Below, one piece after another: positions 2,121-13,491 of a stretch of 20,449 bases of DNA. Source of the stretch: a virus; IMG/VR virus record IMGVR_UViG_3300028840_000226, positions 1-20,449 of that record, one strand, 5' to 3'. Within the stretch, counting starts at the first letter, position 1. Every line of letters starts with the position of its first letter. The notes under the pieces are model-generated. The model did not search any database. It was given only the letters and a program-made list of their open reading frames with translations, and was not told the DNA's origin. The position numbers were made by a program, and so were the translations under genes.

Positions 2121-2377
2121 TACGGAAATAACCCGTTGCCCTCCGTCAGTATTTTCTCAACTGTACTGAGGCTTACGTGCCACTTTTCTGCCAAATGAAT
2201 CTTTAGTTCGGTCTTCTTATGTGTCCGTTCCCTGACCTTGTATTCGTTCCTGATCAGAACACGCTTTGCCAAGTCCTCCCGGATCAATCCGATGTCAAAC
2301 ATCATCTCTGTAACATCCTGTGAGATGTCCAGATTTCGTTTCATGTATTCAGCCGTCCTCTCCCGAATGTTTATCAT
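2120..2377 (-). CDS. Small basic protein with a helix-turn-helix-like C-terminus (85 aa)
   Basis: The protein is basic and helical. Residues about 59-77 (KIHLAEKWHVSLSTVEKIL) read like a helix-turn-helix: a first helix, a short turn, then STVEKIL as a recognition helix. It overlaps the tape-measure stop codon by four bases (ATGA), so it is translationally coupled to that gene. A small DNA-binding protein at the end of a tail operon may be a regulator of the following head genes or a leftover of a homing or regulatory gene. I cannot name a family. The downstream neighbour is the 186-base gap with a hairpin. Confidence 0.7.
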   Translation of the reverse strand: MINIRERTAEYMKRNLDISQDVTEMMFDIGLIREDLAKRVLIRNEYKVRERTHKKTELKIHLAEKWHVSLSTVEKILTEGNGLFP

Positions 2378-5300
2378 AACTCACTCGTCTCGTTGATCAC
2401 TTCCAACTCGTCTTCGGCATCATGCAACTCGTTCACGTTCAATGTGACTTTCAGCCCCCTGATCATCTTCCCTAAATTAGCTGTCTGGCTCAAATTACTC
2501 ACATCCGGTTCTGGTGATCCCACCACACCACCGCTCGCAAATCCCGGTACGCCGATCCGCTTGAACATTGCCGCACCACCCAATCTCGCCTGTTGCGCTT
2601 GGTTCAATATCACTTCCCCCGGTTTGACCAATGCAAGGGTATTATCTCCACTCTTAGGCAATCCCGGTAACTCTGATCCTGTCTGTACCGCTCCACCCTC
2701 AGCAAACGCCTGTGACCGTATCACTGAAATCTGTGCCGCTCCTGCGGCTGCCACCACCGCTCCGGTGATCAGTCCCAAAATTCCACCCTGAGCAATCGCT
2801 TTCGTGATACCCTGTGCCACGTTTATGATCGCCTGAACCACACTAATTGCCTGCTGTCTGCTTGCATACTTCCTTTCAATCTCCTCCCTTTTCTTTGCAT
2901 TATCTCCTACCGCACTCAATTCCCTCTGCTTCTGTGCCTCGAATAATTGACCAAATGAACTTGTCAGATCGCTCGCAATCTGCAATCCCTGATTAATTGC
3001 GTCAAGCGTTTTCTTTTGTGCATCAATCTCGATCTGCGTCCTGTCATTCGCTCCCTTCCTTTTTATGTCCGTCAAATCATTTTCCAGAACCTCCGCACTC
3101 TGCCTCTGCTGTTCTTCAATCTCTACCTGAGCCGCACTAAGGTTTTCCTGAGCCGCTTCAATAGTTTCCTTCTGTACGTCAAAATATTCCTGTGTAATAT
3201 CCCCGGCTGCAAGCCTACTCTTCAAATTTTCAAGCGTAGCCGCCAGAGCCTCGTAATCCGCTCTGACCTCCTCCAATGATCTCCCCCTTGCAATCTTCTC
3301 CTGATCAAAAGCCGCCATCCGTATTTCTTCCTCCTTCGCCAATCTCCTTTCCAATAGCTGTTCACGTACAGCAATCTCCTCATCCGCATTTGTGGCGATA
3401 GCAGCATTTATAGCTGCCAACTCCTGTTCCATTATCTGAATACGTATATCAGCATTATCGTCCACACTATCCGTAAGCTGTTTCTGAGAATCTGAATACG
3501 CTTTCTGTATTTCACTGGATGTTTTTTTCTGGTACTGCTCGATCTCCCTCAGCCGTTCTTTCTCCAATCTCTCGGCCTCTTTCGCTTCTTCCTCCTTCGC
3601 TTTCTTTTCCGCTTTTGCTACCTCCTTTGCCCTCTTCTCTGCCGCTTTCACCTGTTCGCTTTCCAACTCCGCTTGCGCTTTCTTCTCCTGTGCAATAGCG
3701 TCCTCCGCTTTCCTCTCAGCAATCGTCCTTTCTTTTATGATCTCCTGATAGCCTTGCTCGTCTCTCCTCCTCTGGTACTCCTGAAACAATGCAACAGCCT
3801 CCTTGTCATTCACCTTTCTCACCGCCTCAAATTTCTGTGCGATAACATCCTGATCAAGTCCCCAAATCTCCTCGTCTGTCAACCCGTCAAGATACTCCAC
3901 CACTTCACGAAATTGCTGCCCCTGCTTATTACTCAGATTGTTTAACAGGTCAAAACTTCTTTCAAGTTGATCCCCGGATTGTTTATTGAACTTACGAACA
4001 GCCAGATCAAGGTTCTGCACCTGAAGTATGCCATCCTTCAACCCCTGAATAGCACCCCGGATCACCCCCGTTCCCTGCATCGCCAGTATCAATCCCTCCC
4101 ATGCACTCTGCAAGCTCTTCACATCCCCGGCAAACGAGTCAAGCTGAGTCTCAACCATCTCCTGTAACTCGTCATTTACGTCCGTTATCTCATCCCTCAA
4201 TGTCTTGGTCGAATCAGCTGCAGATAAGAACTGGTTGAAAGCCGCTACCGATCTCTTGTCCGTCAACTCCAATGTTTCAGCCAATCCAATACCCTGCTCG
4301 TCCAATCTCTTCATGGCATCGATCAGATCAGGGAATGTTTTTACGTTACCTCCCAATTTCTGAGCCAACGCTCCATTAGCATCTGCCAGATTCAGAAGGA
4401 TGTTCCGTGTAGCCGTTGCCGCTTTTGAAGCATCGAACCCTGCGTCCCGTAACCTTCCTGTCAAAGCAACCGTGTCCTCTAACGTGAACCCATACGATTT
4501 TGCTACTGGCCCGACCGTACTCAGAATTGTTTCATAATCTTCAAAGGCCAAAGCACTCTTCGTGGTCGCTACCGCCAACGTAGCAGCCGCATCAGCCGCT
4601 TCCAGAGTGTCCAGACCGAATGCCCGAACAGCCACCCCCGTCACCTTCGCTGTGCCGCCCAGATCAGAACCAACAGCCGTAGCGAACTGCACCACCGCCT
4701 CCGTACTATCCTGAATCTCACTGGTCGTAAAGCCTAACTTCGCCAGACTGACTTGTAAATCCGTAACCTGTGATGCCGTGAAGATACTCACAGAGCCAAG
4801 CTGCTTAGCCGTTTTCGTCAGTTCAGCGATCTCTTCCCTTGTCGATCCCGTCACCGCCGCAAGTTTCGCCGTTGCCGTGTCGAAATCACCCGTAACCTTC
4901 ACAATGTCACGCACTCCCTTGATCAGAGCCGTAACCCCTACAAATCCCGCAGCCATAGATTTGAAACTCGTCAGAATCCCTCTTCCGTACTCTCCCACCA
5001 GAGTCTTGCTACCGCTCATCTGCCTGTCGAAATTACGGATGCTTGTTTTATTCCTATCGACCTGTTTCTGTATCTCTGCGAACCTTTTCCGACCCTGAGC
5101 CGTGGTAAGATTCAATTGGTTAGCTGTCTGGATCAGCCTGCTCGTTTCCTGCCTCAACTGTTCCATTGACCCCTTTGTGGAAATCGTCTGCTTCGCCAGA
5201 CTCCGATCCGCTTTGTTCAAGGCCAATTTCTGTTGCCTCAGATTTGATGTTGAGATGGTGTTCTGTTTCAGAGCCTTATCGTACTGCTCCTGTGTGATCT

Positions 5301-5439
5301 TCCCCTGCTTCAGCAATTTATCATTCTCACGCCTCGTCACATTCAATTCTTTCAACTCCTGGTCAACTCGGTTGATTTCTTCTGCGACCCTTCCCCGGTC
5401 TTCTATGTCAATCCTGAATGAATAAATTTTGTCAGCCAT
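2374..5439 (-). CDS. Tape measure protein (1021 aa)
   Basis: This is the longest gene in the window. Residues about 15-150 form a Lys/Gln-rich coiled coil. Residues about 180-430 resemble the TP901/PhageMin_Tail domain of tape measure proteins, Ala/Thr/Gly-rich with amphipathic helices (for example TASQVTDLQVSLAKLGFTTS). A long charged coiled coil follows (about 560-800). Near the C-terminus lies a hydrophobic stretch around ILGLITGAVVAAAGAAQISV, then a Gly-rich tail with repeated FA(E/S)GG(A/V)V motifs. The family sets tail length at roughly 1.5 angstroms per residue, so about 150 nm would be expected here. It starts six bases after the preceding tail protein and overlaps the next small gene by four bases. 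Unusually, the tail-tip genes lie upstream of it rather than downstream. Confidence 0.93.
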   Translation of the reverse strand: MADKIYSFRIDIEDRGRVAEEINRVDQELKELNVTRRENDKLLKQGKITQEQYDKALKQNTISTSNLRQQKLALNKADRSLAKQTISTKGSMEQLRQETSRLIQTANQLNLTTAQGRKRFAEIQKQVDRNKTSIRNFDRQMSGSKTLVGEYGRGILTSFKSMAAGFVGVTALIKGVRDIVKVTGDFDTATAKLAAVTGSTREEIAELTKTAKQLGSVSIFTASQVTDLQVSLAKLGFTTSEIQDSTEAVVQFATAVGSDLGGTAKVTGVAVRAFGLDTLEAADAAATLAVATTKSALAFEDYETILSTVGPVAKSYGFTLEDTVALTGRLRDAGFDASKAATATRNILLNLADANGALAQKLGGNVKTFPDLIDAMKRLDEQGIGLAETLELTDKRSVAAFNQFLSAADSTKTLRDEITDVNDELQEMVETQLDSFAGDVKSLQSAWEGLILAMQGTGVIRGAIQGLKDGILQVQNLDLAVRKFNKQSGDQLERSFDLLNNLSNKQGQQFREVVEYLDGLTDEEIWGLDQDVIAQKFEAVRKVNDKEAVALFQEYQRRRDEQGYQEIIKERTIAERKAEDAIAQEKKAQAELESEQVKAAEKRAKEVAKAEKKAKEEEAKEAERLEKERLREIEQYQKKTSSEIQKAYSDSQKQLTDSVDDNADIRIQIMEQELAAINAAIATNADEEIAVREQLLERRLAKEEEIRMAAFDQEKIARGRSLEEVRADYEALAATLENLKSRLAAGDITQEYFDVQKETIEAAQENLSAAQVEIEEQQRQSAEVLENDLTDIKRKGANDRTQIEIDAQKKTLDAINQGLQIASDLTSSFGQLFEAQKQRELSAVGDNAKKREEIERKYASRQQAISVVQAIINVAQGITKAIAQGGILGLITGAVVAAAGAAQISVIRSQAFAEGGAVQTGSELPGLPKSGDNTLALVKPGEVILNQAQQARLGGAAMFKRIGVPGFASGGVVGSPEPDVSNLSQTANLGKMIRGLKVTLNVNELHDAEDELEVINETSEL

Positions 5440-5444
5440 CTCAG

Positions 5445-7529
5445 TTACATTTTTTGAATAAATTCAGCCTTCACCAGATTACCGTCCGTGACTATCTTCG
5501 AGCAAATCCAAAACATATCGTTCCCTTCAATATTGATCTTGTATGTCGCCCGGAATCCTTCGGCCCACGGTGAACTTCCCACCACCGTCATAAATTTCAT
5601 TATCTCTGCCGGGGTCAATTTCAGTGTACAGGTCAGCAGCTTATTCTTCTCAATCCTTCTGTAATCCTTCAACCAATAATCATCGTAAAGATCGCTCATG
5701 TCATCCGTAAGCATAATTGGGATAACATACTGTCTGGTATATCCTGTGTCCTCAGGGCCGTATCTGATTTCCACATAATCGCTCACCCCCATGTCAACCC
5801 TCTCATACTTCAACAGCCTCGGTTGCCAACTCTTCGCCCTGTACTCAGGATATGATGCGTTTGCCATATATTCCTCGCTCCCATGAATCCGTGAAAAATT
5901 GTCCTTATACAATCCCAACTGCGGGTACGTACCATACGCTGAAGCATAGAAAGCACTGTTCTCATGTTCCTCCGTTCCCTTCTGGATATATTCACCACTC
6001 AGAACAACAGTCTTGGTAAACGGTGTCCCATTCGCTGAAACATAATTGTTCCATGCCCTATCGCCCGTATCTGCTTTCCATCTCAACAATTGGTTTGCCT
6101 TGTAATTACTCCCAACTGTTTCCAGTAAATACCCTTTCGAATAATCCACCTTATCCGACCAATCCGTAAACGTGGATGGCGTCCAGTTATAGAAATCATC
6201 GCTCGTCTCGATATACACCGTCTTGTTCATCTTATCCACAAAGAATCGTAGGTTGTACGCCTCCTTGCAAGCCTTCAAAAATGTTACACAATCGATGTCC
6301 GGTAACATCACCGCAGGGTCATTCGTGTACCCTATCCCCGGCCACAAATTCCTTTCGTCCCATGTGTTTTCCAGATACGATGCACTTGCCCCTGCTTCAA
6401 TATACAATTCCAGTGTTCCCCCTGATCCCGTTGCGTCCGTTGCTCCTATTCCGATGTTTACGTGTATATCCACATAATCTGTTGCATCCAAATGAACCCA
6501 CCCCGTGTCCAGATCAAAACTGTTCCCGGTATTGAAAAGAGTTGGCTCCGGGGGGTTCGTTTCCGAATCTGTGAATGAAACAATAGCCGTTCCGTTTTTC
6601 CTGATCGACCATGTAATCGTTTCAGCCGAAATATCCCAATTTACTGTGTTACTCCTTCCTACCTTTATCTGTGCTTTAAATCGATATGTCCCATCCGCAG
6701 GAGCCGTGTACCTATATGTCCCGGTGCTGAAATCATTTCCTTCGTCCGTTGTCTCTCCCTGAATAACCAAAACTTGGTTCACCGTACAGCTTGCCGATCC
6801 CAATGCACCGACCGTGTCCGAATCATAATTGTCCGTGTTATCATCTACATAAACGCTCAACCCTTTGTTTTCCAGAAAATCGTCACTGTTCGGTACTGGT
6901 CTGCTATTGATATATTTCGTATGCCCATCATTCGAGTCGAAGAATCCATTTGCCGCAATCGAATATCCTGCCTGCTCCATTATCCGCTCGACTATCTCCT
7001 TAATTTTCCAGACTGGGTAAAAATCATTCGGATATGTTATTGCTCCAAATCCTGTCTGCTCACTCCACGGTAAGCAATAATTCATAACAGGGTAACAGTA
7101 CAATGGGGTTGCCGTTGGCCCCACACTCGCCCAACTGCCCGTAACATTCGATTCAGACAATAAATGTGTATCACCCGTCCAGTCCACATCCTGAATGCTC
7201 ACCCCCCGGATGTTTTCAAGCCAGTCATCAGCCTCCACGATGGCCCGTACCTTCTCCTGATCTACATTGAGCAACCTGATCCGTCCACTGATAACCTCCA
7301 TGTCATCCACAAAGATGCGAGCCGTATCGCTGACCTCTTCCCGGCTCCTTACATCCTGATAATGTTCCAACAATCTCTTGTTCGTCCTCGTCAATGGAAT
7401 ATCAAATGCATAACTTTTTGCACTCGTCCCGATTGTCAAATCCCTGAAATCGTTCACCTGACGTTTGATGTTGATCTCGCCATTGAAATCCATCAATTCT
7501 GTCCCTATGTAAATACGGTTCTTACTCAT
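5445..7529 (-). CDS. Tail-tip / hub-like structural protein with inserted jelly-roll domain (694 aa)
   Basis: The frame is open from 7580, but the ATG at 7529 (MSKNRIYIGTELMDF) overlaps the previous stop by eight bases, the usual spacing here, so I chose it. The protein is beta-rich. Residues about 1-240 and 395-694 look like the two halves of a tail-associated (hub) protein. Between them, at about 270-385, lies a separate segment that starts TGTYRYTAPADGTYRF and ends GGTLELYIEAGASASYLE. That pattern resembles C1q/TNF-type jelly rolls, which often bind ligands. It lies between another large tail protein and the tape measure, so it is probably part of the tail tip or baseplate. An adhesion role for the insert is inference. 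Confidence 0.75.
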   Translation of the reverse strand: MSKNRIYIGTELMDFNGEINIKRQVNDFRDLTIGTSAKSYAFDIPLTRTNKRLLEHYQDVRSREEVSDTARIFVDDMEVISGRIRLLNVDQEKVRAIVEADDWLENIRGVSIQDVDWTGDTHLLSESNVTGSWASVGPTATPLYCYPVMNYCLPWSEQTGFGAITYPNDFYPVWKIKEIVERIMEQAGYSIAANGFFDSNDGHTKYINSRPVPNSDDFLENKGLSVYVDDNTDNYDSDTVGALGSASCTVNQVLVIQGETTDEGNDFSTGTYRYTAPADGTYRFKAQIKVGRSNTVNWDISAETITWSIRKNGTAIVSFTDSETNPPEPTLFNTGNSFDLDTGWVHLDATDYVDIHVNIGIGATDATGSGGTLELYIEAGASASYLENTWDERNLWPGIGYTNDPAVMLPDIDCVTFLKACKEAYNLRFFVDKMNKTVYIETSDDFYNWTPSTFTDWSDKVDYSKGYLLETVGSNYKANQLLRWKADTGDRAWNNYVSANGTPFTKTVVLSGEYIQKGTEEHENSAFYASAYGTYPQLGLYKDNFSRIHGSEEYMANASYPEYRAKSWQPRLLKYERVDMGVSDYVEIRYGPEDTGYTRQYVIPIMLTDDMSDLYDDYWLKDYRRIEKNKLLTCTLKLTPAEIMKFMTVVGSSPWAEGFRATYKINIEGNDMFWICSKIVTDGNLVKAEFIQKM

Positions 7530-9060
7530 AGTATTCAACCTCGATTTCGCTATCAAACAACTCGTTGCGATCTGATACAATCACCTCATCGTCCACCACC
7601 GTCACCTCCCGGTAACCATCTGTGAAATCACTATCGTACATCCATACCTCGCCATCCGTATAGATCAATTCATGCAACAATTCACGTACCGCCCTTCTCT
7701 CGTATAACATCCTGAGCCGATGCCTGACCGATCGGTAAGCCTTCAATATCTTGCGAATCCTGTTTACATTCTGGTAATATGATTTCTCCGCTACACCCAA
7801 TTCAGTATGCAGACCCCTGAACAGCAATGTTTCTTCTCCCAGATCACCCACAAAGCTCAATGCCCTCACATCCGGGTAACAATTCTGATCCCTCCAAACA
7901 TATAAACCACTCCCTGTGTACTGCCCCACTGTCCGGGCCTCATTCAGACTGTAATGCTGAACAACCATAAATGTGTCCGCAGCTGTTGGTGTATGCGTGT
8001 TGTCATTCACCACATGAATAAACCATCCTGCACACTGGAAAGCATCATCGTCATTACCTCCATAAACCGAATATATGCGAGCCGTCATAAATGGATTGAC
8101 GCACAACCCCATGATCCGAACCTCCATGCCCTCGTTAGAGATGAACTCTGTCGCTACTCCATAAATCCCGGAGCCTGCTACGTTCTCTCTCCTCTTCGCA
8201 CAATATCTCTTGCCGCTTGTGCTGATCAGATAATCCGTAAAGCTATCTCCCACCGGAACGTGAACCGGAGCAAATAAATAACTCTGTGAATATCTCGTAG
8301 CACCTATTGTTGTTACATCACTTGCGTTCTCGTAAACCTCCTGAAACTTCACCACGAAAAATATGCCGGGGTTACCCTTGAAATCTGATATTTTTTTGAT
8401 TGAAAAGTTCCCACTGAAATTCGTTCCTTCCGCATCTCCTCCCAAAAATATGTAAGGCGTAGTGTCCGCATACGGCATCACGAAATAATAAATATGGTTC
8501 GCCTGATGCCTCCCCCCTGAGTTCCCTGAATAGCCACAAAACTCTCCCACCGCTGACGGGTCACCACTCTGTTCCATCTCAAACAATACCGGGAACGTCC
8601 CTGCATCCGAGTACCCCGCATCGACCGCAATCACATAAACATCACCGATCGCTGCCGATCCCAGATCGTTAGACTGCGCCCAATCTTCACCCCCACCCCC
8701 GGATGTGATCGCACTCGTTATCTCCCTTCCAGATGTCGTGAACGTGCTGAAATTACTATTGTACTGAGTCCATCCCGTCAATAGTTCAGAACTCAATGTA
8801 GGGTACAGCGTCCCATCACTACCCCCTGCAGCCACATTACATTTGCCGCAGAAGGATTTCAGGATGTCGAAGAAATCCCAATCGTCCAGACCCTTCGGCT
8901 GTTCCAAAACTGCCACCGCTTCTGTTTCTCCTCCAATATAGATCGTGGCCCGTATTCTCAGATTTTGATAGCTCGCCCCTTCCGTCAGACTCGTTGTTAC
9001 ATCAAACTCCGGTGCATTCGTTATCACTTCCGATGGGTTACCCCCTAATGTCAATGCCAT
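7522..9060 (-). CDS. Tail protein with carbohydrate-binding-like insertion (512 aa)
   Basis: The start is the ATG at 9060, one base after the previous stop. Residues 1-75 (with the motif AVLEQPKGLDDWDFFDIL) and about 228-512 seem to form one structural protein, probably a distal-tail or tail-tip component. They are split by residues about 90-225. That insert begins LTGWTQYNSNFSTFTTSGREI and ends NFSIKKI, a pattern typical of carbohydrate-binding jelly rolls of the CBM4/9 kind: a Gly-Trp strand at the start and a final strand leading back into the host fold. The C-terminal third is Arg/Tyr-rich and helical (KAYRSVRHRLRMLYERRAV). The gene overlaps the hub-like gene by eight bases. Major tail protein is an alternative, but its size and position argue for a tip component. 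Confidence 0.68.
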   Translation of the reverse strand: MALTLGGNPSEVITNAPEFDVTTSLTEGASYQNLRIRATIYIGGETEAVAVLEQPKGLDDWDFFDILKSFCGKCNVAAGGSDGTLYPTLSSELLTGWTQYNSNFSTFTTSGREITSAITSGGGGEDWAQSNDLGSAAIGDVYVIAVDAGYSDAGTFPVLFEMEQSGDPSAVGEFCGYSGNSGGRHQANHIYYFVMPYADTTPYIFLGGDAEGTNFSGNFSIKKISDFKGNPGIFFVVKFQEVYENASDVTTIGATRYSQSYLFAPVHVPVGDSFTDYLISTSGKRYCAKRRENVAGSGIYGVATEFISNEGMEVRIMGLCVNPFMTARIYSVYGGNDDDAFQCAGWFIHVVNDNTHTPTAADTFMVVQHYSLNEARTVGQYTGSGLYVWRDQNCYPDVRALSFVGDLGEETLLFRGLHTELGVAEKSYYQNVNRIRKILKAYRSVRHRLRMLYERRAVRELLHELIYTDGEVWMYDSDFTDGYREVTVVDDEVIVSDRNELFDSEIEVEYYE

Positions 9061-9061
9061 G

Positions 9062-9592
9062 TCAAACCGCTTTTATGTTCCTGTTCAATACTGATTCCAT
9101 TTCTGCCGTCATAAACTCCCGGTAGAATTGCCTGACGTACTCCCCGATCTTATCCTTGTTCTTTTCCAGAGCATCGTTGATCCATCCTGTCCGCTTGCCC
9201 GTTGAACTGAACCGATACGAACCCCTCGTAGGCATCCCTTCCCTTTTCTGCTTATGGGCAATCGCAAAGGCCACACTTTTTGCCCTCACCAGATCACCCC
9301 CCGTAATCCGTCTGGCTGCATAACTCATCAATGCCGCAATGTACTTGCTCTTCCTCACCCCTGATCCCGGAGAAAATGGTATGTTCGCTGCCGCCACACC
9401 CTTCTCAATATAGATGCCGTACGGGTACATTTTAGCGATCAGACTCGTCCTGCCAAAATCCCTTTCAATCTCGTAATCGATCTCCTCAACAATCTTACCG
9501 CTTTCAAAATGCCCCTGCCTCCTCCATTCATCCAATAGAGCCTGCTTCAGAAAAAACTTCAGCGTGTCGATATTTGTGTTTGTCAGCACCAC
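9062..9592 (-). CDS. HK97 gp10-like neck / tail completion protein (176 aa)
   Basis: This is a basic protein of the length expected for gp10-type head-tail joining or tail completion proteins. Visible features are YGIYIEKGV, then SKYIAALMSYAARR, then AIAHKQKREGMPTRG with TGKRTGW, an arrangement I associate with that family in phages. The start is a GTG at 9592 (or the adjacent GTG at 9589). No ATG lies near the N-terminus, and the GTG overlaps the previous stop by ten bases. It sits next to the tail-terminator-like gene, which fits a job at the head-tail connection. The assignment rests on pattern and context only. Confidence 0.62.
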   Translation of the reverse strand: MVLTNTNIDTLKFFLKQALLDEWRRQGHFESGKIVEEIDYEIERDFGRTSLIAKMYPYGIYIEKGVAAANIPFSPGSGVRKSKYIAALMSYAARRITGGDLVRAKSVAFAIAHKQKREGMPTRGSYRFSSTGKRTGWINDALEKNKDKIGEYVRQFYREFMTAEMESVLNRNIKAV

Positions 9593-9999
9593 AGCTTCAA
9601 TGTTATCCTGTACCGTATAGCCATTTCCCTTTCCAGACTCAACAATCCTGCCGGGAAATGCTCAAACTCAGGCTCCGTTGTTTCGACCGTCAAGTCATCC
9701 TGATCGTCCACTTCTGCGATATATTCCAGAAATGCCGTCTGTATTGTGTCCCAGGCCGCATGCCTGTTGACCACATCATCCTCCGGCTCAACCTCCGTCA
9801 ATATCCACAAGTCCATGTTCAACTCCTTTACTCCTTCCCTTCGGTCGATCGTTCCCGTAGCATTCCCAATATCCCACAATGCCAACGGGTAGGTCTTACT
9901 TCCATAATTCAAATAGGTCGTATAATCGAATACCACCTGTACGATGTCAGTTCCCGTTTTTGCGCTGTCCAGTTTCGTTTTCAAATCTGCGTAAGTCAT
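9583..9999 (-). CDS. Tail terminator-like protein (138 aa)
   Basis: This is a small acidic alpha/beta protein with a helix at the N-terminus (TYADLKTKLDSAKTG), a central strand region ending in NMDLWILTEV, a helix with WDTIQTAFLEYI, and a last strand AIRYRITLKLWC. This layout is that of tail terminator or tail-completion proteins (lambda gpU / HK97 gp10-gp11 region), which cap the tail tube before head joining. The ATG at 9999 is the only good start. It lies inside the end of the preceding 76-residue frame (53-base overlap), and the gene overlaps the gp10-like gene by ten bases. The family call is inference. Confidence 0.58.
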   Translation of the reverse strand: MTYADLKTKLDSAKTGTDIVQVVFDYTTYLNYGSKTYPLALWDIGNATGTIDRREGVKELNMDLWILTEVEPEDDVVNRHAAWDTIQTAFLEYIAEVDDQDDLTVETTEPEFEHFPAGLLSLEREMAIRYRITLKLWC

Positions 10000-10177
10000 G
10001 TTCCCTTGATTTGATCAATTTTTGAATATAATGCCGCCCCTTATTCGTCAACTCCCGGATGCACAAAGCCACCAGAATATGCTTCAGCAATTTTATCTCA
10101 CTTTCCAGCCTTTCCCTTTCTTGGTGGAGGCATGATGAGTTCCCTGTATTTGTTTTGCGCTCTGAGGTAACTTGCAT
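9947..10177 (-). CDS. Small helical protein overlapping both neighbours (76 aa, uncertain)
   Basis: Residues about 19-65 form a convincing charged helix (for example ERERLESEIKLLKHILVAL), which is why I keep it. It overlaps the end of the frameshifted chaperone frame by 80 bases and the start of the tail terminator-like gene by 53 bases, so only about 100 bases are its own. The ATG at 10177 is the only ATG; a later non-ATG start after the chaperone stop at 10098 would give a shorter protein. It could be a real overlapping gene or a chance frame that fills the gap. No function is proposed. Confidence 0.42.
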   Translation of the reverse strand: MQVTSERKTNTGNSSCLHQERERLESEIKLLKHILVALCIRELTNKGRHYIQKLIKSREHDLRRFENETGQRKNGN

Positions 10178-10394
10178 AATTGATAAACTCGTATAAATTC
10201 ACCTGTTCCACTTCACTCACTGTTCCGTATGCTCCATCCTGAGCCACCTCGTACAAAATCCCTCGCCACCCGAAGTCCATCAGACCAGACTGCCGAACCT
10301 TTGCTGAATCCTTCGTTCCATGCTTTTTGAATACCGATGGGTAGATTTCAGCAATTTTGAAAGTCGTACGTACATGTAAAAAAAAACCGCCCAC
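10098..10394 (-). CDS. Frameshift extension of tail assembly chaperone (gpGT-like T part)
   Basis: This frame is open from a GTG at 10394 to the stop at 10098 and lies in the -1 frame relative to the 257-residue gene that precedes and overlaps it. It has no good start codon of its own. Both frames run across nine T's (10378-10386). A -1 slip on T_TTT_TTT there would join residues 1-225 of the upstream protein to the last 93 residues of this frame, giving a product of about 318 residues. This is how lambda G and GT and many siphovirus tail chaperones are made. The T part (including LYEFINYASYLRAQNKYREL) is helical, as expected for a segment that recruits tail tube subunits to the tape measure. 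Confidence 0.72.
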   Translation of the reverse strand: MGGFFLHVRTTFKIAEIYPSVFKKHGTKDSAKVRQSGLMDFGWRGILYEVAQDGAYGTVSEVEQVNLYEFINYASYLRAQNKYRELIMPPPRKGKAGK

Positions 10395-11053
10395 ACAATG
10401 TCCATGGGCAGTTCCTGAAACTTATCCGCTCTCGCCATCACTTTGCTCTCGTCATACTCCTCCCCATCCGGTCTGCAATAAATCGCTATCAGCATTGGAA
10501 TCCGGTTCGCTGCTCCCTCTGCCATATCCCGTAGGGCCACTTCAATATCACTCGCCTCTGCAAACGTGATAGCCTTTTCCCTCGCCATCGGAATCTCGTC
10601 ACCGTAAATGCTCAGTGTGATAGGTAACTGATACCTCACACCATCCAACTCAAAATGCTCAATTTTCGGGGGTTCGTAAACATCCAATTCGCCATCCTTC
10701 AGATCGACCGGGAGGTTAGCGAATATCGAATAAATGTAATGCCGTAGATGCTTATTGAAAAATTGTTCCCTCAGCGAGCCGTGGATCAGATCAATAACGT
10801 CCTCCGGGATGTCCGTCAGGCACTTTATCACTTTCCCATAATACTCAGGGAAAGTCTTTTCAATTTCCACCACTCCAATAGCCTCGTCAGCCTTTTTGTA
10901 ATCCTCATCAGATTCCCCGGCTGAGGCCACCCACAGTTGCCGTAACTTTTCTGGAATTTCAATGTCGCACAGTTCAATGAACTTTTGTAGAGTGATTTCC
11001 TTCCAATTCTGCGGGGCCGTATATTCCTTCCCTCGAATTGTCAGCTTGATCAT
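10280..11053 (-). CDS. Tail assembly chaperone, gpG-like (257 aa)
   Basis: The protein is acidic and mostly helical. The N-terminus is MIKLTIRGKEYTAPQNWKEITL, a strand pair followed by a helix, as in proteins that serve as tail assembly chaperones. The evidence for the call is mainly its architecture: it overlaps a downstream frame lacking its own start, and the overlap contains a nine-T slippery run at codons 223-226 (Val-Phe-Phe-Tyr). The products would be a short gpG-like form (257 residues) and a longer gpGT-like form. It starts by an ATGA overlap with the Lys/Ala-rich gene upstream. Its position is unusual: tail-completion and tip genes separate it from the tape measure, whereas G/GT normally lie directly before it. 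Confidence 0.68.
   Translation of the reverse strand: MIKLTIRGKEYTAPQNWKEITLQKFIELCDIEIPEKLRQLWVASAGESDEDYKKADEAIGVVEIEKTFPEYYGKVIKCLTDIPEDVIDLIHGSLREQFFNKHLRHYIYSIFANLPVDLKDGELDVYEPPKIEHFELDGVRYQLPITLSIYGDEIPMAREKAITFAEASDIEVALRDMAEGAANRIPMLIAIYCRPDGEEYDESKVMARADKFQELPMDIVWAVFFYMYVRLSKLLKSTHRYSKSMERRIQQRFGSLV
10378..10387 (-). other. Programmed -1 frameshift slippery site (G + T9)
   Basis: On the minus strand the codons GTT TTT TTT TAC of the chaperone gene contain the heptamer T_TTT_TTT in the right frame. After a -1 slip the next codon is TTA, and the frame stays open to 10098. The bases just downstream, TACATGTACGTACGAC, contain small self-complementary words (TACATGTA, GTACGTAC), but I see no strong stimulatory hairpin. 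A nine-base homopolymer can also be a sequencing length error, which would fuse the frames for a different reason. Confidence 0.72.
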
Positions 11054-11334
11054 CTCATGCTTTTAATGAAGTTGAGTTTCATCACTTCGGCCCTCTTCCT
11101 GTGAACGAAATAAATCCTGTACGGTTTGTTCTTCATTCTCTGGGCCGCTTCGACTGCGGCTAAATTGTCGATTAGCTGCTCGTAACTCTTCAGGATAACA
11201 GAAGGGTCAGCCAGTTTCTCATTCACCTTTATGCTCGGCTTCTCTTCCTTCTCCTTTTTTGGAGCCGCTTTCTTCGGTGCTGCTTTCTTCACTGAAGCGG
11301 TTCCTGTTGAACTTTTTTTCTGTGCTGTTGCCAT
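11050..11334 (-). CDS. Lys/Ala-rich small protein (94 aa)
   Basis: Residues 1-33 are histone-tail-like, rich in Lys, Ala, Pro and Thr, with a repeated KKAAPKKAAPKK segment, and are probably disordered. Residues 35-94 are helical (SVILKSYEQLIDNLAAVEA and a basic end, YFVHRKRAEVMKLNFIKSMR). It starts with ATG after an A-rich leader and is coupled to the chaperone gene by an ATGA overlap. The order suggests a tail or packaging accessory protein, possibly nucleic-acid binding because of its basic ends. I do not recognise a family. Confidence 0.65.
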   Translation of the reverse strand: MATAQKKSSTGTASVKKAAPKKAAPKKEKEEKPSIKVNEKLADPSVILKSYEQLIDNLAAVEAAQRMKNKPYRIYFVHRKRAEVMKLNFIKSMR

Positions 11335-11395
11335 TTGATTTTGATTTTATGAATTATAAACCTTCACAAGTTAGTATATTTCTGCCTATATGCTC

Positions 11396-11412
11396 ACGTA
11401 AAATTTTTACGT
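11396..11412. repeat. Perfect 17-base palindrome
   Basis: ACGTAAAA and TTTTACGT flank a single T. The palindrome overlaps the stop codon of the 108-residue gene and lies 62 bases before the next start. It is AT-rich with no U-run after it, so it looks more like a protein-binding site than a terminator. It shares the TTTACGT/ACGTAAA word with the palindrome at 19120-19131. Confidence 0.6.
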
Positions 11413-11733
11413 ACTATCTCCGTCAATCACTTCAGACCCATACGACCTCTTTAATCCCAACAGCTTGCGCCTTTCCTCGATATAGTTCCCTGTCTCTGCG
11501 CTGCACCTGATCCTTAACTTCGGCAACCTCCATAAGACAATAAACTCCTCATCCGTCAGGTTCTCAAAATACACTTTCGGCAGATACACTTCCCTCTGTC
11601 CATTCAGCTGAGGTATCTTTGCAAAAATTGATTTCTCCAATGCCTGAGTAATCTTGTACAGTTGTTTTTCCTTTTCTTTATCCATTTCTTTATCCTTATC
11701 TTTTTCTTTTTCTTTTTCTTTATCCCTTTCCAT
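11407..11733 (-). CDS. Small protein with Lys/Asp/Glu repeat N-terminus (108 aa)
   Basis: Residues 1-23 are almost only Lys, Glu and Asp (MERDKEKEKEKDKDKEMDKE), encoded by a six-base-period repeat. The remainder is a folded-looking domain with strands and helices (VYLPKVYFENLTDEEFIVLW, then a Cys and an ERRKLLGLKR helix). The DNA just before the start resembles the DNA before the similar repeat in the gene at 19928-20449, so the front part may have been copied from a replication-protein linker. It lies downstream of two tiny membrane protein genes and upstream of a 72-base gap with a palindrome. I do not recognise the C-terminal domain. The start codon is uncertain, since the low-complexity part may not all be translated. 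Confidence 0.6.
   Translation of the reverse strand: MERDKEKEKEKDKDKEMDKEKEKQLYKITQALEKSIFAKIPQLNGQREVYLPKVYFENLTDEEFIVLWRLPKLRIRCSAETGNYIEERRKLLGLKRSYGSEVIDGDST
11664..11730. repeat. Six-base-period low-complexity repeat
   Basis: On the plus strand this is a run of CTTTTT / CTTTAT / CCTTTT type hexamers. On the minus strand it encodes alternating Lys with Glu or Asp. Such a tract can change length by slippage, and in-frame changes would alter only the linker length. Confidence 0.75.
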
Positions 11734-12021: not shown

Positions 12022-13491
12022 TTAAAAGCTTTTCATTCCTAACACTGAACTGCGGTGCTTCATCTGCCCCATCCTCGTAATCGCCATCACCAGAGTGTCC
12101 GCTATATCGTCATGCTCCCCAAAGGGAAATGCTTTCAATTCATCTACCAACATTGGAACCCATCCGCTTGACTCTTCCAGATACACCCGTCCAGATTCAA
12201 TAAAGGGCAGCACTGACTTCATCCGCTCTGTCTTTCCATCCTTCGGTGGTTTGTCAATCACTACGTTCAAATCCGTGTACCTCTTCAGCATCTGAGCAAT
12301 CGAATGCCCGGACGCTTTCGGCTCGATTACAATAGCACTTTCTCCGTTCATCTTATTCCGTCCCAAAAATCCCGGTACGTGCTTGATCAATTCAGGCAAT
12401 TCCATCCACACCCTGTCCACGTCCCGGATGTACAAATCATTCTCCCACACCCCGGCACACAATAATGCCGTAGGATCGTTCAACCGATCTTCCGTATAGG
12501 CTCCATCTATGAACACGTTCCAAACAATCTGTTCGTTCTCCTGATAGGCTCGCTCTTCCAACTCCTTCAGCCTGAACCGCTTGAACCACTCAGGACGTAC
12601 AAGGTTCCCTTCCTCAGCAATCGGATTCTGCTGATACTGACCGGAATAGTCGTTAGAGCCAAGTGATACCCTTGCACGTTTCAATACATTGGCAGTCAAT
12701 CGAATACGGTCTAATAAACCATCCGTGTACATATCTTTCAACCTCTCCGGTTTGATTAATGAACTAAATTGTGCAGGAAGGCAAATCTGTCTGTACAACC
12801 TCATTCCCTCGTCCTGCTTCTTCATACAATGCCCCGTCAAATCATTCACGCTCAGCCTCTGCATTACAATCACTTTATGGCTGACCTCCGGGTTCGTCAT
12901 CCTATTATAAATCGTATTGTCCCACCATCTGTTAACCTCCTCGTACTGCACCTGACTGTTAGCCATCTTCGGATTCATCGGATCGTCACAAATCAAAATG
13001 TCGCCATGCTTCCCTGTCGCTCCTCCCTTCACCCCGAAAGCGATCCTGTTCCCTCCTTTATTGTTGGCGTACTCACTCTTTTTGTTTACATCATATTTCA
13101 ACCGCCACAAATGCCCGAAGTGATCCCTGAACCAGTCCGATTCAATGATGTCCCGGCTCATCACTGCATGCTTGATAGCCAGATCAGCATTGTAACTCAT
13201 GGTGAGAAACTTCATCCATGGGTGACTAATCCAGCACCAGACCGGAAATGCTATCGTGATCAGTGAACTCTTCATCGTCCCGGGAGGTACGTTGATAATC
13301 GTGTCATGCTCCCTGAGTTCCTTCCCTGCCACCTGATCCCTGATTGTTTTCAACTGCTCGCATAAATACGAATGATGCCAATTCCATACGAGCTTGGTTT
13401 CTGGTTCAATCACCTTCCACGCCTCCCGGAAAAAGTCCTCAAAGCTGTCCCGGAATCTCCACTCTGCCGTATGTAAATCAATCTCATTCAT
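12022..13491 (-). CDS. terL: Terminase large subunit (489 aa)
   Basis: This is the DNA packaging motor: an N-terminal ATPase and a C-terminal nuclease. Visible motifs are the Walker A-like NVPPGTMKS (residues 67-75), Walker B ILICDD (165-170) and the coupling motif VIVMQRL (207-213). The nuclease domain has acidic residues in FIDGAYTEDR (D329), VIEPKASG (E390) and HDDIADTL (D461, D462, D465). The Walker A has Met in place of the usual Gly/Ala-Gly before Lys-Ser, a variant seen in phage terminases. The length is normal for the family. It overlaps the upstream 99-residue gene by eight bases. An HNH nuclease gene lies two genes upstream, the arrangement known from cos-type packaging phages such as HK97. 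Confidence 0.96.
   Translation of the reverse strand: MNEIDLHTAEWRFRDSFEDFFREAWKVIEPETKLVWNWHHSYLCEQLKTIRDQVAGKELREHDTIINVPPGTMKSSLITIAFPVWCWISHPWMKFLTMSYNADLAIKHAVMSRDIIESDWFRDHFGHLWRLKYDVNKKSEYANNKGGNRIAFGVKGGATGKHGDILICDDPMNPKMANSQVQYEEVNRWWDNTIYNRMTNPEVSHKVIVMQRLSVNDLTGHCMKKQDEGMRLYRQICLPAQFSSLIKPERLKDMYTDGLLDRIRLTANVLKRARVSLGSNDYSGQYQQNPIAEEGNLVRPEWFKRFRLKELEERAYQENEQIVWNVFIDGAYTEDRLNDPTALLCAGVWENDLYIRDVDRVWMELPELIKHVPGFLGRNKMNGESAIVIEPKASGHSIAQMLKRYTDLNVVIDKPPKDGKTERMKSVLPFIESGRVYLEESSGWVPMLVDELKAFPFGEHDDIADTLVMAITRMGQMKHRSSVLGMKSF

Follow-up and report, generated by a model that had tools for sequence, protein, structure and literature searches.

Recoding at a run of nine T's very probably yields two products, G and the longer GT, from one locus of the viral DNA analysed here (IMG/VR record IMGVR_UViG_3300028840_000226, 20,449 nucleotides, hereafter the window), and we hold with nearly equal confidence that this locus is a G/GT-type tail assembly chaperone pair from a family without functional annotation. 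Judged by sequence comparison, the predicted slip is conserved and largely unannotated in more than 200 related viral sequences. We infer the production of both proteins, their ratio, their roles and the machine that slips. What is new here is a G/GT-like pair in a large, functionally unannotated family, with a slip site that is an unusually fixed homopolymer. A literature search for a frameshift in this family found none, most subscription journals lying outside that search.

Probable slip site and overlapping reading frames

The G-like gene, which encodes a zero-frame product of 257 amino acids predicted to be a tail assembly chaperone, lies at 11053-10280 on the minus strand, as do all features of the window described below. 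In the frame of this gene, the segment 10460-10360 contains the codons ...GTG TGG GCG GTT TTT TTT TAC ATG TAC..., and the succession GTT TTT TTT TAC places the heptamer T_TTT_TTT (10385-10379) in phase. The slip site itself, the only T9 in the whole window, occupies 10386-10378. The sequence-only reading of this DNA had counted nine T's correctly but placed them at 10378-10387, one base too long because 10387 is the preceding G. Stepping one base back at the run leads into ...VWAVFFLHVRTTFKIAE..., a frame that stays open until the stop codon at 10100-10098, giving a fusion of 318 amino acids; the phases, the open frames and the fusion of about 318 residues proposed by that reading are thus confirmed in the sequence. 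The T-like −1 frame (FFLHVRTT...GKAGK, 10385-10098) forms the C-terminal part of the fusion, and the stretch 10377-10280 is dual-coded, belonging both to the zero-frame tail and to the T frame.

In the proposed scheme, most expression would produce the 257-residue protein G, while a minor fraction would shift by −1 at the T9 run and continue in the −1 frame to give the 318-residue G-T fusion. By an alternative route, a transcript with one extra U would encode an identical fusion, the junction residues perhaps excepted. On the model of phage lambda, the tape measure protein would be coated with G, and the tail tube subunit brought in by the T part.

Conservation of the junction and coding of both frames

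Relatives were collected with the 711-residue tail protein of the window as the query, which gave 38 loci. A mechanical search of these loci for in-frame X_XXY_YYZ motifs of any kind that lead into a −1 frame revealed the same G/−1-frame arrangement repeatedly. Further scans led to 239 sequences, in 213 of which both domains were detected with two-domain profiles. The T domain was found in the −1 frame, with a pure T run of 8-10 at the junction, in 210 of these 213 loci, which form 92 clusters at 80% identity that are not fully independent of each other. By cluster, the run is T9 in 85, T10 in six and T8 in one, and never seven. It occurs in three codon phases among the 210 loci (xTT TTT TTT Txx, xxT TTT TTT TTx and TTT TTT TTT), and an in-phase T_TTT_TTT is present in every two-frame locus. 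Across 847 kb of related loci, the gene strand holds 91 junction runs of T9 or T10 and only 11 further T9 runs, with nothing longer outside the junctions. Searching viral contigs with the 257-residue protein or the terminase returned just one near-identical contig, which ends before the junction; tblastn of G against phages gave no match, nor did one genome scan for relatives.

The T9 form is found in cultured hosts and phages, among them Rufibacter ruber CCM 8646 (L237), Dysgonomonas sp. 520 (L236) and the Nonlabens phages P12024L and P12024S (L074 and L075). Based on the hosts of these relatives and on the terminase relatives, the virus of the window probably infects a Bacteroidota host. The family is also present in a contig filed as a Pseudooceanicola metagenome-assembled genome (L234), which may be misbinned. 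A clade of 21 loci (L186-L216) carries T8 instead of T9, and Tyr replaces Leu/Phe after FF in its −1 frame.

The three exceptions among the 213 loci comprise two single-frame fusions and one locus with a further frame break. In L046 the fusion is encoded in a single frame through GGG TTC TTT CAA, with no T run. In L235, a prophage of Dysgonomonas sp. 520, a T10 run (8450-8459) puts the fusion in frame while the G frame is still open. Its sister prophage in the same genome (L236), with about 85% identity in this region, carries T9 at the same site (8016-8024) and would form the fusion by a −1 shift. The existence of these natural single-frame fusions indicates that the two frames form one protein. 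A run length joining the frames without slipping was found in this single T10 copy only. In the third exception (L190), T9 is present at 6483-6491 and the T domain lies in the third frame further on, the only such case, in which the extra frame break is a probable indel or decay.

Profile comparisons and substitution patterns both bear on the coding status of the two frames. A profile built with the window left out matched the window G at E 1.1e-11, and a profile made from the residues that follow the run in homologues matched the window T at E 1.2e-6, as the sole match in six frames. Substitutions were then counted by codon position between disjoint pairs of relatives. Before the run, zero-frame positions 1/2/3 carried 149/38/341 substitutions (341 of 528 at the third position); after the G stop, −1-frame positions 1/2/3 carried 130/48/255 (255 of 433 at the third position), and the pattern was mixed in the overlap homologous to the dual-coded stretch. 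This switch of substitution periodicity from the zero frame to the −1 frame is direct evidence of two coding frames. In the comparison with homologues that the sequence-only reading proposed, the second frame proved conserved as far as about 20% identity, and it lacks a start of its own in most of them.

Could the −1 frame nevertheless be translated from its own start, as a separate gene and with no fusion? The window does hold a GTG (10394-10392), eight bases before the run, so that the earlier statement that this frame has no start is, strictly, incorrect here, and the record of the Nonlabens phage P12024L lists gp41 as a gene in its own right. However, this GTG is absent in most homologues. 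Before the T core, start codons of every kind are missing in 61 of the 92 clusters and 19 more have TTG only, leaving 80 of 92 without ATG or GTG; in most clusters the T part would therefore have to be read as a fusion. As L046 and L235 moreover encode the fusion directly, an independent start is mostly refuted and two separate genes are very unlikely. We give a similarly slight chance to a phase-variable switch, in which replication slippage on the T run would toggle the locus between G-only and GT-only states. The sister prophages of Dysgonomonas sp. 520, with T9 and T10, would fit such a switch, but toggling at random should have left in-frame copies at many loci, and with 210 of 213 loci in the −1 arrangement this explanation was rejected. 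Least probable, to the point of being negligible, are gene decay and errors of sequencing or assembly. Homopolymers are error-prone and L190 does carry its extra frame break, but the same junction recurs across 92 clusters, cultured isolates and L009, a GC-rich relative (57% GC), and codon periodicity changes frame across the run; error and decay are refuted by this conservation.

Gene neighbourhood and probable tail chaperone identity

Upstream of the pair and in the same gene run, the window encodes a terminase large subunit (12022-13491; PF17289, 2e-8), a neighbour also found upstream of the pair in L035, L237 and phage P12024L. The pair is followed by genes of 138 amino acids (9583-9999) and 176 amino acids (9062-9592), both located at the same place in relatives and assigned to the tail module by position, and further on by the 711-residue tail-module gene used to find the family (5445-7580); relatives in which this gene is seen have it about 2.1-5.8 kb downstream of the junction. 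The tape measure protein (2374-5439; PF10145, 4.4e-26) comes after four intervening genes, the order in the window being terminase, small genes, G/GT, 138 aa, 176 aa, 512 aa, 711 aa and tape measure. The pair is thus within the tail module with the tape measure gene, without being immediately upstream of it. The sequence-only reading regarded this distance as unusual. L035 and L237 show a similar gene order as far as the 711-residue gene, and the position is therefore a normal feature of the family and no oddity of the window. In L041, a tape-measure-like gene stands directly behind the pair; this locus also has a 1479-residue open reading frame (7047-11486) with collagen-like SGTNGTSGSSG repeats, probably a tail fibre.

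In the window segment 1-13491, the tape measure gene is followed by a ClpP-type protease and then by a capsid candidate, so that tail genes precede the head protease; between the terminase and the tail genes no portal could be recognised. Known phages with similar terminases (PJN03, P2559Y, P2559S, phi18:1 and MA9V-3) were set aside, as their annotated gene order differs: portal and head genes, in the records that annotate them, lie near the terminase.

No Pfam or NCBIfam match was obtained for G, only PHROGs of unknown function, and a PDB sequence search with the G profile returned only unrelated chains. AlphaFold2 models were obtained for the natural L046 fusion (pLDDT 88) and for the window G (78.6). 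For both models the best VIA-align match was the HK97 tail assembly chaperone 2ob9: the L046 GT model aligned with a Z of 4.5 over 78 residues (next match 2.5) and the window G model with a Z of 3.7 (next match 2.1), low values with no accompanying sequence match. A Z of 4.5 alone could reflect a common structural arrangement. Foldseek against the PDB gave nothing significant with either model (E above 6). Among viral predicted structures there are many uncharacterised relatives and two annotated tail assembly chaperones, matched weakly at E of about 0.03. The G/GT-type assignment made in the sequence-only reading is thereby supported, the structural part of this support being independent but modest.

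Lambda gpG/gpGT are likewise tail assembly chaperones made by a −1 ribosomal frameshift. Compared with that pair, the slip site here is a long T homopolymer of near-fixed length, no sequence similarity was found, and four genes separate the pair of the window from the tape measure gene, whereas lambda G/GT adjoins it. The E/E+E' tail chaperones of phage P2 are produced by a −1 shift at T_TTT_TTG. They resemble the present pair in combining a T-rich heptamer with a −1 shift in a tail chaperone, but differ in that the P2 heptamer has six T's while 8-10 are kept here. The cultured members of the family, the Nonlabens phages P12024L/S, have T9 at the gp40-gp41 junction with the terminase just upstream. 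Their records list two hypothetical proteins with no frameshift noted, the T part being annotated as a separate small gene in P12024L (L074:12989-13683), where gp40-gp41 would probably be better annotated as one joined frame.

Ribosomal or transcriptional slippage

The −1 frameshift of the sequence-only reading stands as far as recoding at the T run is concerned, but this recoding may be transcriptional, instead of or besides ribosomal. As the main route, a ribosomal tandem −1 slip on T_TTT_TTT has about even chances, slippage of RNA polymerase is possible but rather less probable, and a contribution of both would be unlikely. Such a ribosomal −1 slip, the usual mechanism in tail chaperones, would be enough by itself. 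Comparison of relatives did not reveal a conserved RNA stimulator on either side of the run, and downstream structure as a ribosomal stimulator gave no signal; lacking a conserved downstream stimulatory structure, nothing positive points to the ribosome. The window has a terminator-like 9-bp hairpin inside the coding region (10387-10411, within the segment 10387-10416 of the minus strand) that directly abuts the T9 run on its 5′ side. It was rejected as a slippage stimulator, since it was not found in relatives and was not unusual against synonymous shuffles (z −1.4).

Programmed transcriptional slippage is a serious candidate that we retain tentatively: the host RNA polymerase would slip on T9 and produce mRNAs with 8 U's or with 10 and more; normal translation would then yield the fusion from the mRNA with one additional U and G from the faithful mRNA. 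RNA polymerase is known to slip efficiently on nine A or T, and the RNA-DNA hybrid measures 9-10 bp (PMC5009743). Genes with transcriptional slippage have been recognised by a homopolymer of at least eight A or T at the frame junction (PMC3711429), and T8-T10 is found at the junction of 210 loci. The length of nine recurs in 85 of the 92 clusters across three codon phases. In phase-1 loci, a T8-to-C change was never seen, although in most of them it would alter neither encoded protein and would keep a compatible heptamer, T_TTT_TTC; the joint probability of missing it, calculated from codon usage, ranges from 0.02 (60% clusters) to 0.0005 (80% clusters). The near-fixed run of nine whatever the phase, the missing T8-to-C change and the lack of a conserved RNA structure do not follow from the heptamer rule. 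The T10 prophage of Dysgonomonas could moreover still make G by slippage of the polymerase, but not by a ribosomal −1 slip. Against this, an in-phase T_TTT_TTT accompanies every two-frame locus, the known tail chaperone cases are ribosomal, and part of the run is imposed by the encoded amino acids, V/I/L-F-F in one frame and F-F-L/F in the second. The absence of C could also stem from UUU pairing less strongly than UUC, slippage would be poor in the T8 clade, and the incomplete independence of the clusters tempers these counts. Nine-base A/T homopolymers likewise give two products in Thermus thermophilus dnaX and in insertion sequences, where slippage has been measured (PMC5009743); here it is inferred. 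The papers searched describe no tail chaperone made by transcriptional slippage. It is quite conceivable, if short of even chances, that in a widespread Bacteroidota-type phage family the G:GT ratio is set not by the ribosome but by slippage of the host RNA polymerase on T9, with the T10 copy still able to make G. A natural test between slippage of the ribosome and of RNA polymerase is offered by the two Dysgonomonas prophages, T9 and T10 sisters within a single host.

Whichever machine slips, the recoded G/GT pair suggests what the "hypothetical" phage proteins of a large family probably do, and adds a second product so far hidden. P12024L/S and the Rufibacter and Dysgonomonas prophages carry members of this family, whose two frames annotators can now join.
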